DNA from: Candidatus Zhuqueibacterota bacterium
Lineage (GTDB): Bacteria; BS750m-G25
Length of the DNA stretch: 55,431 bases
Assembly: GCA_016783505.1 (NCBI GenBank)
Contig: JADHWK010000013.1
Coordinates: 1 to 55,431, forward strand
Direction: 5' to 3'
Shown here: piece by piece, positions 3,536-26,813 of the stretch
Layout of the letters: the number at the start of each line of letters is the position of its first letter
Numbering within the stretch: position 1 is the first letter of the stretch
The notes under the pieces: model-generated
The model's input: the letters and a program-made list of their open reading frames with translations, nothing else
What the model was told of the DNA's origin: nothing
The model's database searches: none
Made by a program: the position numbers and the translations under genes

Positions 3536-3618
3536 TTAACCTTAAATCTATTTACCTAAAAAAACACGGACGGGAAAAATTAAATTTTTCATAACCACTT
3601 GACTCCCTTATTAGCAAA

Positions 3619-3804
3619 AATGAGCAATAATAAGCAGTAAATCTACCCCCTTCTTGCCTCCTGCATCTTTTTAGTAGGTAGCAGATTTTCCCACTGAAGC
3701 TTCACCTGCCCAAAATTCACCAATAGCGCCAGGTCGAGACCAGTCGCCAAAATATACTTCATCACTTGAAACCGATTAACATCCGTAATGAGCAATAATA
3801 AGCA
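3619..3804. repeat. 18-nt direct repeat flanking a GxxExxY relic
   Basis: The same 18 bases (AATGAGCAATAATAAGCA) occur at 3619-3636 and 3787-3804 in the same orientation, with further degenerate AGCAATAAT/AGCAG words beside the second copy. Between them lies the carboxy-terminal remnant of a GxxExxY gene. The arrangement resembles a cassette with repeated ends. Confidence 0.7.
3643..3780 (-). pseudogene. C-terminal remnant of a GxxExxY protein
   Basis: On the minus strand an open stretch of 45 codons ends in TAG at 3645-3643 and reads ...MKYILATGLDLALLVNFGQ, then VKLQWENLLPTKK. This matches the end of GxxExxY family proteins, where a helix Q-x-x-x-YL-x-x-TGL is followed by the strand LGLLINFG and then a short RLI-type tail. 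The amino-terminal two thirds, including the GxxExxY motif and the D...ExK core, are missing and no start codon with a ribosome site precedes it. I therefore call it a decayed fragment. It lies between the sorting-domain M6-like gene and the Omp85 fusion gene, flanked by direct repeats. Confidence 0.7.
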
Positions 3805-3816
3805 ATAATTAGCAGT

Positions 3817-6800
3817 TCATTTCACCACAGCTATTTTTATAAAAGCGATTTTCTTTTTTCCGTTCCCCTTGGCCTCCACCCGGGCCAGGTACACTCCGCT
3901 GGAAACTCCAGAAAGGTCCCAGGGAACTTCATTATCGGCCTGGCCTAATCCCTGACCATCGAACTCATCAATCAGATCCCCGGCTAAGTCAAAGATCTTG
4001 ATGTTCACCGATGCATCATAATTCAGGTAATATCGGATGTTGGTCGAATTCCCCTCCGTAGGGTTGGGCCAGTTATAGACCAGCGAACCGGGCATCAGTT
4101 CTCCCTGGCGATCTGGGGGCGACGGCGTTTCTAAATTAGTGCTGGTATTACGTTTATCGTGCAGGTATTGACCCCAGGGGATATAAGCCGAGGTGTCGCT
4201 TTCCGGTAGGTTCCAGGCGTAAATATAGCCGTCGTCGCAACCGACTACCAGTTCCAGCTGGGGATCATCGTCAATATTGCACAGCATAGGGGTGGAATGA
4301 ACCGGGCCTCCCGTGGTGAGGGGAAAACCATCCACCATCCTCCCATTGTGATGGAAGGCGACAACCTCATTGGCCGGGGTTCCTACAATAATTTCCAGGT
4401 CACCATGGGAATTAATATCGCCAATAATTGGGGAAGACCGTATTTGTCCGACATTTCCACTTTGTTTTACACTAATGGGAAAATTATTTACTAACGTTCC
4501 ATTGCGATTGTAAGCGAAGATATAATTGTCACCGCTGATGATTATGTCTAGGTATCCATCGTCATTAATATCGGCTATAGCCGGAGTGGAACTAAAAGAA
4601 TTACCAGAACTGACAACCCAGCCGTTCGCATTGGTGCCGTCCCCGTCAAAAAGTCCCACTTTCCCTTGATTTCCAACCACCACAAAATCAAAATTCCCAT
4701 CCCCATTAAAGTCGGCAACGGCGGGACAACCTGATATCTTTTCCCCCAGGTCAATCAATTCAATTGGATTCCCAGAAAAATCCCCCACAAAAAATACCTT
4801 GCCATTCTCTAAAGAGATAATAAAGGTAGAGTCAGATTTGAATGGGGCAATGCCCCTGATCGGGGCTTCCAAATGAGCAAAAAATAGGGTATCCTCTCCT
4901 GTATAGTTTATTATATAGAAATCGCCGATAGCATTCCCAATGGCAATCCTGAAGTCAGTGACTACCGGCGATAATTTTATGGGTGAACCAGTGGAATAAC
5001 TGAAAAGGAAGTCTAATAGGTGGTCAAAAGCATATAGAACTCCATCGTCACATCCGATTATGATTTCTAAATTACCGTCTTCATTCAAATCTGCCAAGGC
5101 GGGAGTCGAATGAACACTATCGGGTAAATCCAGCCCATAGCTTGAATTATCCTTGACCACCGTCAACCTTCCCCCCACAGAGCTAATGATGATCTCATTT
5201 AAACCATCCCCATCCAAATCACCGAACTTAGGGGAATTGGTAAAAGTAGGACCAATAAAAAGAGGAAATCCTTCTTGATAAAAATCATTTGTAACTTTGA
5301 AGCTCATAACGGTATCAATAGTGCTGAAGTCAGAAATGATAAGATGGCTGCTGGCCCCGGAATTGGAGCGGCTGTCGGGAACGGAGCGGGGGGAAAATTC
5401 CACTTTACTTAAATTCGGGTTGGCATTCAAAAAGGCCGGGTTGTCTTTAAAAAAAACATCGTAGGGGTTTCCGTATTCGGTCCCGCCGCCCGGGCTGAAC
5501 AGACCGTATTCCTGCCCGATGTCCTCGGAGCCATCGGCCTCTTCTAAGTCCACCCCCCGCCCTTCGGGGTCGGCGTTTACCCGATTTTCGCCCAGTTTAG
5601 AGTGGATAACAGATTCGTCCACATGCCAGATCAAAATTCCTGATCCCGGGATACCCCAATCAAAGCGTTCCACCGATGTAAGAACTCCAGACGTGGAATC
5701 AACCTTTACCAAAGCCCCTAGATGGATCTGGAGAAGATCAAAATAGGAATACCATTTCGAGGAATCTTGATAAAGCTGGTACCGAAGACTGTCTATGCTC
5801 ACCCTGGGGAAGACCTCGTTGGACCGATTTTCCAGCAGAAAATATTCCTGGGAGTTAATGGGAATTTTGTAAATTTCACCCCGTTTGATGGTCAGGATAG
5901 TAGTATCAAAAGCGCTGATCTCAATGGGACTGACCCACCCCATAAAGACCTTTGACCAAGCACAGGGTTCCACCGGGACCAGTCCGTCCAGGGCCCCCGA
6001 TCCCTGGTCCATCAGTCCCCAGCGGCCGATCCCCGAGGCCCCGGTGTCAGAGTTATAAAGATTCGGCAGACCAAGTTGGTGGCCGAACATGAGACACATG
6101 ACTCCGTTAAGACCAAATTCTATCCATTGGGTCTCCCCACTTAGATCTCGGTAAGGTTGATGTTCGCATTCTGGTAAAATAATTCCCCTTTTTACCGAAA
6201 AAGTCCCCTCATCCACCGGAATTCCATTGGAATATTCGGGCCCCAAAACCTGGAAGTCAAGGGAATCAAGGTAGACGGAGGGGATATCAAACGGTGTATC
6301 ATCTTCACCGAAATCTTGACCAACCCCGGCATGAAAAATGATTATGCCCTGATAGTTCGAAAAGACAATTTCAGGACTTACTGTATCCGCCATTGTCACC
6401 GCATCCCGGAACAGCTCGGCTAGTTGGCGGTTCAGGACTTCTTCCCCGGCGTTGTAATTGTAATGCCACATAGGGTGGAAGAGCCGGTAACTGCTGTCAG
6501 TAGAAGATGGAAAAACCTGGTATTGAATATTCAATTGACCATTAGAGACCCGTTCAAAATAATTTTTCAGAAAAAGAAGGTGATCCTCAAAGTATTTTTT
6601 GTCGTGGGGGATGGGATCAATCTGAAGATCATCGGGAAATCTAGAGTTAAAAGTGCCATTCCCGGTGGTCGTTTCCAGGGTATCCTCAGCAAACTCGACT
6701 CGGATGGCCAGCACATTGATTATTCGTTGGGCTTGGTAATCTGGCTTCGGCATTGGGGGGGAGGGCCGCGCCCGCCCTGGAAGAATATGGGGTTTGAAAA

Positions 6801-24361: not shown

Positions 24362-25309
24362 TTATGTCAAGCCCAATTTTACGGCAGCAGCCAACAGGGG
24401 GATCATGATCTCGTGATGGCCGCTGAAATCAAACCCCTTACCGCCCCCCCTGAGGGGCCGTCCCAGCACGTTCACCTGGGGCCGGTAATGGCGATACATG
24501 TCAAAATTAGCGGCGGTGAAATTAACCACTCGATGTCCCAGATTACGGGCTAAATTAAGGGCCTTTACAAAGACTTCGGGCAGGAGAACGGCCGACCCAA
24601 CATTAAGAATCACACCCCCCTCCCCAAGCTGTGAGACCTGGGAAGTAAAAATTCGGAAATCCCGGAGGCTGAGCTCACCGATTGCTGCCCCATCAGCCGA
24701 GGGGTGTTGATGGATAATGTCCGTCCCCATCCCCACGTGAACGGTAACCGGCACCCCGAGCTCATAACCCCGGGCCAAAAGGCTTAGGGGTTTATTGGGG
24801 GCTTCCGCATCCAACAATTCCACCCCCAGGATTTCACCCAGCCCGGTTTTGGACACCATGCCTTTTTTAATAGCCCCGTTGATGAAATCCGCCGTTTCTT
24901 TAGCCATCCCGAACGACCCATCTTTTATATTTTCGGCCACATTTTCCGAAGTGATGCCCCACAGGGCCAGCTCGCAATCGTGCACGATACCGGCCCCGTT
25001 CATGGCCACCGCAGCAACAATCCCCCGTTCCATCAGGTCAATCAGGATGGGGCTTAAGCCCACCTTAATCAGATGGGCCCCCATCATGACGATGGTCGGC
25101 CTTCCGATCCGGTGGGCAGTAATGATCCGTTCCACCAGCTCCCGAAAGTCCCTCCCCGCCAAGATGGTTGGCAGGGAGGAGAAGAAATCTTCAAAAGTGC
25201 CACCGGAAGCAAAAACCTTTCCAAAATCCTGGATGTGAACCTTACTTCTCCGCTCGGTAATGGAATAGGTCTTTACCCGACTCAGGTCTATTTCCACATA
25301 TTTGGACAT
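24362..25309 (-). CDS. Deoxyhypusine synthase-like family protein
   Basis: 315 residues. Conserved blocks typical of the bacterial branch are ASGGTFEDFFSSLPTIL, MMGAHLIKVGLSPILIDLM, AMNGAGIVHDCELALWG, VTVHVGMGTDIIHQHPSADG and LNVGSAVLLPEVFVKAL. The fold is that of deoxyhypusine synthase, an NAD-dependent enzyme that modifies eIF5A in eukaryotes and archaea. The end of this protein (GGGKGFDFSGHHEIMIPLL) differs from true DHS, and the lysine that carries the aminobutyl intermediate cannot be recognised. Bacteria have no eIF5A, so the reaction here is unknown. The start is followed closely upstream by the inverted-repeat island. Confidence 0.75.
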   Translation of the reverse strand: MSKYVEIDLSRVKTYSITERRSKVHIQDFGKVFASGGTFEDFFSSLPTILAGRDFRELVERIITAHRIGRPTIVMMGAHLIKVGLSPILIDLMERGIVAAVAMNGAGIVHDCELALWGITSENVAENIKDGSFGMAKETADFINGAIKKGMVSKTGLGEILGVELLDAEAPNKPLSLLARGYELGVPVTVHVGMGTDIIHQHPSADGAAIGELSLRDFRIFTSQVSQLGEGGVILNVGSAVLLPEVFVKALNLARNLGHRVVNFTAANFDMYRHYRPQVNVLGRPLRGGGKGFDFSGHHEIMIPLLAAAVKLGLT

Positions 25310-25352: not shown

Positions 25353-25380
25353 AAACCACGGAGGCACAGAGACACGGAGA
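25353..25380 (-). repeat. Left inverted repeat of the GxxExxY island
   Basis: AAACCACGGAGGCACAGAGA then CACGGAGA. Its complement shares 16 consecutive bases (TCTCTGTGCCTCCGTG) with the copy at 25878-25893 on the other side of the GxxExxY gene. The two face each other like terminal inverted repeats. Confidence 0.75.
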
Positions 25381-25397
25381 AAAATACTTTGTGCCCT

Positions 25398-25780
25398 TTA
25401 TAATACTAATCTTTTGATGCCGTCTTTCATCACTGCAACGTAAAAATTGAGAATCAAGCCTACTTTGAGACCAGAGAGCCGCAAGTATATCAGCAATTGA
25501 GCCTCATGAACCGGAGCAATGGCGTCTACACACTTTAATTCCAAAATTACCTTATTCTCAACCACTATATCAATCCGATAACCACAATCTAACTTGATGC
25601 CCTTGTATTCAAGTGGAAGCGGCCTTTGTCGCTCAAAGGGCAATCCACGTAATTCCAATTCACGGTATAAACACTCTTCGTAAGCAGACTCCAATAGCCC
25701 CGGCCCCAAGTGACGATGCACTTTCCGCCTAGGCGGACTGCTCCAATTATTTCTTCTGTTAGATTCTTCTCATATAGCAT
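25398..25780 (-). pseudogene. GxxExxY family gene, frameshifted by a palindromic insertion
   Basis: The start MLYEKNLTEEIIGA (ATG at 25780) is the normal amino end of GxxExxY proteins, and the body VHRHLGPGLLESAYEECLYR (G-LL-E-SA-Y motif) through RIDIVVENKVILELKCVD to VGLILNFYVAVMK is also normal, but they lie in different frames. Between them sits the perfect 14-base palindrome TCCGCCTAGGCGGA (25724-25737), about 8 bases longer than the family spacing allows. A GTG at 25721 could restart translation and give 107 residues. The D...ExK pattern suggests a PD-(D/E)xK nuclease-like fold; the function of the family is not established. The gene sits between inverted repeats. Confidence 0.8.
25724..25737. 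repeat. 14-base palindrome inside the GxxExxY gene
   Basis: TCCGCCTAGGCGGA equals its own complement. A related core (TCCGCCTTTGGCGG) lies in the spacer hairpin at 51313-51364, suggesting one mobile or repeat family. Confidence 0.65.
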
Positions 25781-25877
25781 CGTACAAACCCCTATATTAT
25801 TATATATGGATATTTTGTAATAGATTAGCCATAGAGATTAAAAAGTTGTAATCCAACTGTTCCGATTTTTATGCCTT

Positions 25878-25903
25878 CTCTGTGCCTCCGTGTCTCCGTG
25901 GTT
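25878..25903 (+). repeat. Right inverted repeat of the GxxExxY island
   Basis: TCTCTGTGCCTCCGTGTCTC then CGTGGT. It is the inverted partner of 25353-25380. Its last bases overlap the TAA stop (25904-25902) of the DUF3108 gene, so the insertion may have set that gene's end. Confidence 0.75.
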
Positions 25904-26813
25904 AGGGGTTTGAATTTAAAATCCCTGACCCAGGGACAAACTCCTCCAGTTCAGCGGTGATTGACCCGATGATCACCTTACTCTTCATCAGGACGGGTAA
26001 TCCCCGGCCGTCGTCCGAAATCCAGATGGTCAGCCGGCCCTTCTTTTTAAAAATACCGATGGACTTAAGTAGGGGTTCGATCACAAAGCAGGAAAACCTC
26101 CCTGCCCCCACCTTCACCTTCTCCTTGCGATAGACCTTAACCTCAAGGTCATAAATTTTCCCGTTGTCGTGGACGGGGATAAGCAAGGATATTCCCACCT
26201 CAAGGGGCTGGGTGCGAACATAATACAGGGCCGACAGGGCATCCTGGATAAACTCGGGCACCTGGGCCGTATCCCGGTCTGAAGAATTAGGGAAGTTAGA
26301 ATAAGCTAATCGGATCTTTTGATCGAAGTCCACTTCATAGTCGAAGACGTATTTCCCCTCTCGCAGATGTTTCTCGTAACGCCAAGGGAAAAGACCCTCC
26401 ACATCAATATAAGTCCGCACCACATCCCGAACTTTATAAAAGCGGGAGAAAAATTTGTTGGACTCAACCACCGATGATATGGAATAACATCGGGCCCCGT
26501 TGATTTCTTTAATCTCGTGAATGGACATCACCGTATGGCCGGCGTTGATGGGGCCGTAATTTACCGAAAAATAGAGCTTTTCCCCTATCCCGAAAGCCCG
26601 ATTCTCGATGTGGCGTCCTGTAAAGGAGGCTTTACTATCAGCGATTCCGCCTTTTCCGATGGTACCGTTAATCCCTTCCTTTTCTGTTTGTGAATAGACC
26701 CTATTTAGGAAGAAACCAGCGGCAATGAAAAGTAAAAAAGAAAAGGTAATAAGGTCTTTTAAACAAAATCCTTTCCTCTGAAAATACATATTTCCTTTGA
26801 AAATACCTAACAT
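25902..26813 (-). CDS. DUF3108 domain protein, probably periplasmic
   Basis: 303 residues. After a hydrophobic signal region (LITFSFLLFIAAGFFLNRVY) the domain starts with FGIGEKLYFSVNYGPINAGH, the typical DUF3108 opening, followed by YSISSVVESNKFFSRFYKVRD and the closing VWISDDGRGLPVLMKSKV region. These proteins are predicted periplasmic beta-rich proteins; their function is not known. M1 at 26813 or M9 at 26789 may start translation. The stop codon lies within the right inverted repeat, and the last residues (GSGILNSNP) may derive from the insertion. Confidence 0.82.
   Translation of the reverse strand: MLGIFKGNMYFQRKGFCLKDLITFSFLLFIAAGFFLNRVYSQTEKEGINGTIGKGGIADSKASFTGRHIENRAFGIGEKLYFSVNYGPINAGHTVMSIHEIKEINGARCYSISSVVESNKFFSRFYKVRDVVRTYIDVEGLFPWRYEKHLREGKYVFDYEVDFDQKIRLAYSNFPNSSDRDTAQVPEFIQDALSALYYVRTQPLEVGISLLIPVHDNGKIYDLEVKVYRKEKVKVGAGRFSCFVIEPLLKSIGIFKKKGRLTIWISDDGRGLPVLMKSKVIIGSITAELEEFVPGSGILNSNP

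Follow-up and report, generated by a model that had tools for sequence, protein, structure and literature searches.

A small GxxExxY gene between inverted repeat arrays suggests a previously undescribed form of minimal mobile DNA

Does a small gene enclosed by two inverted repeats, at the junction of two ordinary protein genes, belong to a mobile unit, and if so, what moves it? The question is raised by a GxxExxY gene in the stretch of 55,431 nucleotides of bacterial DNA analysed here (the window). The role of the GxxExxY family is unknown, and the literature that we searched makes almost no mention of it; in one published pipeline (PMC8934634), a GxxExxY domain was reported beside an RT at a position that another tool assigned to cas4.

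Results

As the original prediction held, the gene is bracketed by inverted copies that share 16 consecutive bases; the arms form an inverted pair of 28 nt at 86% identity with a perfect 16-nt core. Each arm consists of three tandem 8-mers of the form CACRGAGN pointing inwards. The left arm, which is the cassette's downstream end in the orientation of the gene, reads CACGGAGG CACAGAGA CACGGAG on the plus strand (25357–25379; inverted-repeat extent 25354–25381). The right arm, its upstream end, reads CACGGAGA CACGGAGG CACAGAG on the minus strand (25878–25900; extent 25876–25903), and the variable eighth base is g then a on the left and a then g on the right. These two arms are the only CACRGAG arrays in the window, and likewise in the whole 2.5-Mb assembly. 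Since the same pattern read backwards gave no match in that assembly, the arrays are not due to chance.

Only one gene lies between the arms, and it matches TIGR04256 and PF13366 alone. Its conserved part is in frame at 25398–25721 (minus strand), scoring 137.3 bits against TIGR04256 (E = 2.7e-40; cut-off 35) and 134.5 bits against PF13366, PDDEXK_3 (E = 2.9e-39; cut-off 22). The gene had been read as one stretch from 25398 to 25780, which proved incorrect: comparison with intact homologues revealed a perfect 14-nt palindrome, TCCGCCTAGGCGGA (25724–25737), that breaks the frame. Because this palindrome replaces the expected sequence, the detached N-terminal codons (MLYEKNLTEEIIGA; 25738–25780, minus strand) lie in a frame different from that of 25398–25721. 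Because of the frameshift we rejected an intact functional gene; the window copy is probably inactive, unless the assembly is in error at this point. The palindrome, which has no exact copy elsewhere in the window, could have arisen as a micro-insertion or could be an artefact of the assembly.

The cassette is situated between two protein genes, both on the minus strand. Its upstream arm abuts the TAA stop codon (25902–25904) of the DUF3108 gene (25902–26813), in agreement with the earlier observation that the right copy reaches the neighbour's stop, and its downstream arm lies 44 nt ahead of the start of a deoxyhypusine-synthase-like gene assigned to the GSU2086 family by profile match (24362–25309). 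An empty version of this site had been anticipated in relatives, and we found one in G057, a distant comparison genome whose GSU2086 and DUF3108 proteins are 58% and 54% identical to those of the window; there the two genes overlap directly (...GAGAACTGATG...), with nothing between them.

A second GxxExxY remnant between repeats had also been reported in the window. Repeats do flank it, but the resemblance to the cassette ends there. The match is weak (35 residues at 3685–3789; E = 2.4e-4), and the flanking copies (3617–3820) are direct rather than inverted and belong to another type, a period-9 repeat GAGCAATAATAAGCAATAAT (GAGCAATAATAAGCA...) unlike the CRCNRAK arms described below.

Arms of the kind seen in the window accompany the GxxExxY family as a whole. 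Our sample comprised 80 named loci in which the closest relatives are found and further loci from a one-per-family genome sample, and is biased towards close homologues of the window protein. At least three C-R-C-N-R-A-K units were present within 300 nt of the gene at 93 of 103 GxxExxY loci, from about 15 phyla, with arrays on both sides at 63 of the 103; the rate at background positions was 41/1024 (4%), and none of 55 control loci had such arrays (0/20 for RAYT, PF01797; 0/22 for TIGR02436; 0/13 for GSU2086). When the upstream flank was aligned locally to the reverse-complemented downstream flank, a test that presupposes no motif, 85 of 99 loci exceeded the 99th percentile of background. CACRGAG itself occurs at 5.1/kb near GxxExxY genes versus 0.38/kb elsewhere in the same loci. 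Thus, the idea that other genes of this family would prove to carry arms was borne out.

The general unit, C-R-C-N-R-A-K, is spaced at 8–10 nt and usually present in three copies; ahead of the gene it lies on the coding strand, and directly behind the stop it is inverted. With the same layout we found the dialects CGCAGAG, CGCAAAG, CACGAAG and CGCGGAG, as well as CRCAGATT, CGCCGATGAA, CACTGAGAA and CACGGATRGA; an impression that half of the loci were devoid of arrays was wrong, as those loci use other dialects. Conserved sequence starts ~5 nt beyond the last unit on the outer side (TTCAC preceding CACRGAG) and reaches ~20 nt, weakly, in Geobacter-like genomes. At one locus (L085, 5513–5575) the reading frame of the gene stays open through the upstream array (ATG ATT GAA CCA CGG AGA CAC GGA GGC ACG GAG...), and some copies may thus include an arm in their coding sequence.

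Groups on the GxxExxY protein tree mix phyla, and array dialect clusters on that tree, requiring 18 changes where shuffled assignments required a mean of 40 and none of 200 shuffles was as low. Such clustering would arise even if arms and gene were just physically linked, and a link in trans is better supported by the arrays distant from the gene. These sequence comparisons show that gene and arms form one unit across about 15 phyla.

We looked for gene-carrying units at orthologous sites. At a Geobacter operon junction, between an upstream gene that we take to be methylmalonyl-CoA mutase (mcm) and a downstream gene that is presumably methylmalonyl-CoA epimerase-like (mce), seven Geobacterales genomes are occupied in all: six by a contiguous cassette (G059, G060, G081, G082, G104 and G116) and G135 by a degenerate one. 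The same junction read in 22 other genomes had the two genes 22–315 nt apart and no cassette, and most of the remaining paired mcm-mce matches look cassette-free too. The gene-carrying unit is present or absent at this orthologous junction, a polymorphism that the proposal of a mobile cassette had implied. The cassettes of G104 and G116 have (8,9) array spacing and distinct proteins, and that of the Geobacter-like quartet has (8,8) spacing; these differences therefore point to more than one arrival at the site. Three Geobacterales genomes with a cassette-free mcm-mce junction (L329, L330 and L332) carry a different inverted-repeat element there, GGTTGTTGAAAAACAGCCATC ... GATCTGGCTATTTTTGAACAACC.

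Units lacking the gene were likewise present or absent at four orthologous sites in the Geobacter-like quartet, with the clearest empty sites in G081 (..GGTACGG joined to CGCCTGAGATCATGCG..) and G060 (..ATTAAACATT joined to TTAAGAGAAATATAG..). The compared flanks are only ~85% identical and the junctions ragged, and no target-site duplication could be fixed. Both the family-wide arms and the sites empty in relatives support the original reading of a recurrent mobile cassette, and the mobility of the cassette and its gene-less derivatives is well supported.

Gene-less units made of two inverted arrays were found in many loci, and many genomes contain tens of such mini-units or of solo arrays, for the most part in the dialect of the genome's own GxxExxY gene. 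Mini-units number in the tens in the four Geobacter-like genomes, measure 60–340 bp (often 145–185 bp), enclose several kinds of interior and occupy unrelated junctions; inverted doublets in intergenic space were found in this quartet and in L058, L062 and L093. All 22 of the named GxxExxY-bearing genomes that we examined, which were chosen for CACRGAG arms on their GxxExxY genes, contain arrays (2–69 each). Among 59 genomes sampled one per family, arrays were present in 8 of 16 with GxxExxY versus 1 of 43 without it (Fisher p = 4.5e-5), and the reversed-pattern control in this sample gave 0.

Arms away from GxxExxY genes, which could have told against the cassette, are common in some genomes; there they take the form of mini-units, paired and lacking the gene, or of solo arrays whose dialect matches, which is what non-autonomous derivatives would be expected to look like. 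The repeat dialect of a gene recurs in most of the arrays dispersed in its vicinity: among arrays more than 500 nt from the gene, 47 of 67 matched the locus gene's dialect and spacing, compared with a mean of 16 and never more than 37 when dialects were assigned at random 2000 times, a count in which L064, with 17 of the 67, weighs heavily. There are genomes that depart from this pattern. The window genome has no arrays besides its two arms. G033 has 6 arrays, of the CACAGAG type, yet the arms of its own GxxExxY genes are CRCAGAT, and in G007 a single array occurs in the absence of any GxxExxY gene. The complete 5-Mb genome of G046 contains 126 arrays, most of them single, alongside just one GxxExxY gene; at the loci inspected there (L165–L184) these are mostly solo arrays beside GGCAAGA-type short tandem repeats, not doublets, which suggests a different spreading mode.

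Several loci show further structure. Both ends are doubled symmetrically (LL...RR), or L-x-R units stand in tandem with a conserved 25-nt spacer, in L061, L064 (7340–7560), L095, L063 (411–760) and L058 (85–800), and L058 has near-identical mini-units in direct orientation on either side of the gene; these arrangements may be traces of a copying mechanism. Some mini-units (L233, L246, L251 and L252) enclose a further inverted array, ACAGGGATATACAGGATGAACAGGAT ... ATCCTGTTCATCCTGTAAATCCCTG, apparently another repeat family nested within them.

What kind of protein does the cassette encode? The original prediction had named a D...ExK core as a candidate nuclease, and this reading gained support. 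Invariant in 62 sequences are G23, G25, E28, Y31, E32, D68, E78, K80 and Y96, with Q92 nearly so, and E78-x-K80 together with D68 matches the PD-(D/E)XK active-site pattern. The order D...ExK...QxxxY is typical of the RecB/Cas4 branch. A structure model (pLDDT 95, pTM 0.88) had as its top Foldseek matches LHK-Exo, SSO0001 (Cas4) and lambda exonuclease (E about 0.006–0.03), and VIA-align superposed it on SSO0001 with Z 10.0 and rmsd 3.8 over 99 aligned residues. XisH (2okf, Z 6.1) falls within a group of tied middling scores, and we claim no likeness to it. By sequence, the protein had no match in the PDB. The GxxExxY protein is thus predicted to be a minimal Cas4/lambda-exonuclease-like PD-(D/E)XK nuclease; it has the predicted fold and the D...ExK...QxxxY pattern in common with those enzymes but is only ~125 residues long.

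Discussion

The package described here, scattered between genes with or without its gene in about 15 phyla, points to a minimal type of jumping DNA that has not been described before. The window unit is best read as one copy, probably inactivated, of a mobile cassette of ~0.5 kb with GxxExxY as its single gene, whose ends are inverted arrays, usually of three C-R-C-N-R-A-K units at 8–10 nt, bounded on the outside roughly by TTMAC. We propose that the protein encoded by GxxExxY reads the repeats, probably in oligomeric form, and binds both arrays; it would then cut at the arrays or their borders, so that the segment between them, whether cassette or mini-unit, is released or copied. This segment would insert at operon junctions, where repair or replication by the host would finish the process, and mini-units would be moved in trans, as REPINs are by RAYT. 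We favour a GxxExxY cassette with nuclease-driven movement as the probable explanation of our data. Whether GxxExxY itself drives the mobility we regard as evenly balanced. We offer still more tentatively, at a little under even confidence, the proposal that these cassettes represent a class of minimal autonomous element not recognised before, in which a Cas4-like nuclease of ~125 residues reads arrays whose dialects coevolve with it and moves both itself and mini-units, with four-helix-bundle elements possibly forming a parallel class.

The proposed role of the nuclease has to be weighed against the possibility that other machinery (a host enzyme, a reverse transcriptase or a transposase) recognises the paired arrays and moves the cassettes, while the GxxExxY or four-helix-bundle protein merely travels along or serves to protect, regulate or repair the ends. 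The most serious objection to the nuclease is that two unrelated small families, GxxExxY and TIGR02436, have the same architecture with different repeats, so that a shared mobiliser is conceivable, and the arrays without a matching GxxExxY gene in G033 and G007 point the same way. However, the class of repeat goes with the protein family (CRCNRAK at 93/103 GxxExxY versus 0/22 TIGR02436 loci), and array-rich genomes exist without TIGR02436 (G046, G065) or without a Y1 transposase (G065, G072). We consider such other machinery unlikely, though deserving of real weight. RAYT was rejected for this part, with arrays at 0/20 of its loci and Y1_Tnp absent from the array-bearing genomes G065, G070 and G072. 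We also rejected a phage or plasmid vehicle; GxxExxY was found in 0 phage records, 7 of 72,556 plasmids and 5 of 2.9 million viral contigs.

Immobility is harder to reconcile with the data. The arrays might be REP-like elements serving RNA processing, termination or chromosome organisation, with GxxExxY binding them as a resident regulator and presence or absence arising by loss and gene conversion. In an mRNA of the cassette the two arms would base-pair to form a long stem (z −2.7 for the window RNA), insertions are located at operon junctions, a Bacteroides plasmid has GxxExxY beside radA, and the Geobacter-like quartet keeps the gene in place despite substantial divergence. Against this, the mcm-mce site holds cassettes of 8,8 and 8,9 spacing with clearly different proteins while most relatives have none, protein-tree groups cross phyla, and units whose interiors differ are found at junctions unrelated to one another; such a regulatory or structural role seems to us quite improbable. 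A known RNA family was rejected, Rfam giving no match in 8 sources. We give next to no credence to a coincidence in which a conserved small gene happens to adjoin a terminator-like inverted repeat, which has nothing in its favour except the shortness of the arms and is refuted by the arrays at 93/103 loci, the motif-free test (85/99) and the absence of reversed-pattern matches.

The nearest parallel to the proposed nuclease-driven cassette is the REPtron (PMC8049555, PMC8266576). There, inverted doublets dispersed in the genome are mobilised by the product of a chromosomal nuclease gene that itself lies between repeats. Both have one small nuclease gene between inverted short repeats, and repeats of the same type dispersed as singlets and as inverted doublets with variable interiors. 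However, GxxExxY is of the PD-(D/E)XK type and the REPtron nuclease is HUH/Y1, RAYT loci in GxxExxY genomes have no CRCNRAK arrays, and the GxxExxY repeats are tandem arrays of non-palindromic heptamers whose end consensus contains no GTAG. The system thus works like RAYT/REPIN but fails the defining features of a REPtron and is not one. The gene-less units resemble MITEs (PMC10969869) in their size of 60–340 bp, their terminal inverted repeats, their presence or absence in relatives and their presumed movement in trans; they differ in that their ends are repeat arrays and in having no known parent transposase (Y1_Tnp, the family checked, is unassociated), GxxExxY being the sole regular gene inside matching arms. 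Insertion sequences measure 0.8–2 kb (PMC10969869), and the gene-carrying form, at ~0.5 kb, is smaller and, in the window, has no DDE, HUH, Ser or Tyr transposase gene between its arms. The intervening sequences of 23S rRNA with an S23 ORF (PMC4990558) and TIGR02436 genes are similar in placing a small ORF between inverted repeats in ~0.4–0.5 kb with little other cargo, but the GxxExxY protein is unrelated, its repeat class differs and its units lie between protein genes. Our literature search, mostly outside subscription journals, found neither the array k-mers nor a description of the cassette.

The GxxExxY family is hereby placed in a concrete context that comprises its cognate DNA sequence, the mobile unit to which it belongs and a possible mechanism, and widespread, apparently undescribed intergenic repeats (CACAGAG, CGCAAAG, CACGAAG, CGCAGATT and similar arrays) are tied to a specific protein. 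If GxxExxY does move the arrays, a PD-(D/E)XK nuclease alone would suffice for a transposon-like life, by a route of which REPINs, MITEs and IS elements offer no known example, and the dialects would offer a natural series for studying the evolution of DNA-recognition specificity.

TIGR02436 four-helix-bundle genes are multi-copy in many GxxExxY-bearing genomes. At loci L353–L382 (for example L355, L361, L363 and L370, in the flanks of 1501–1821), these S23/Avd-like genes lie between inverted arrays of 7–10-nt units, TAGCACTTGGCACTTAG, GGCGTTAGGCTTTAGGCATTAG and GAGTGAGGAGTGAGG.
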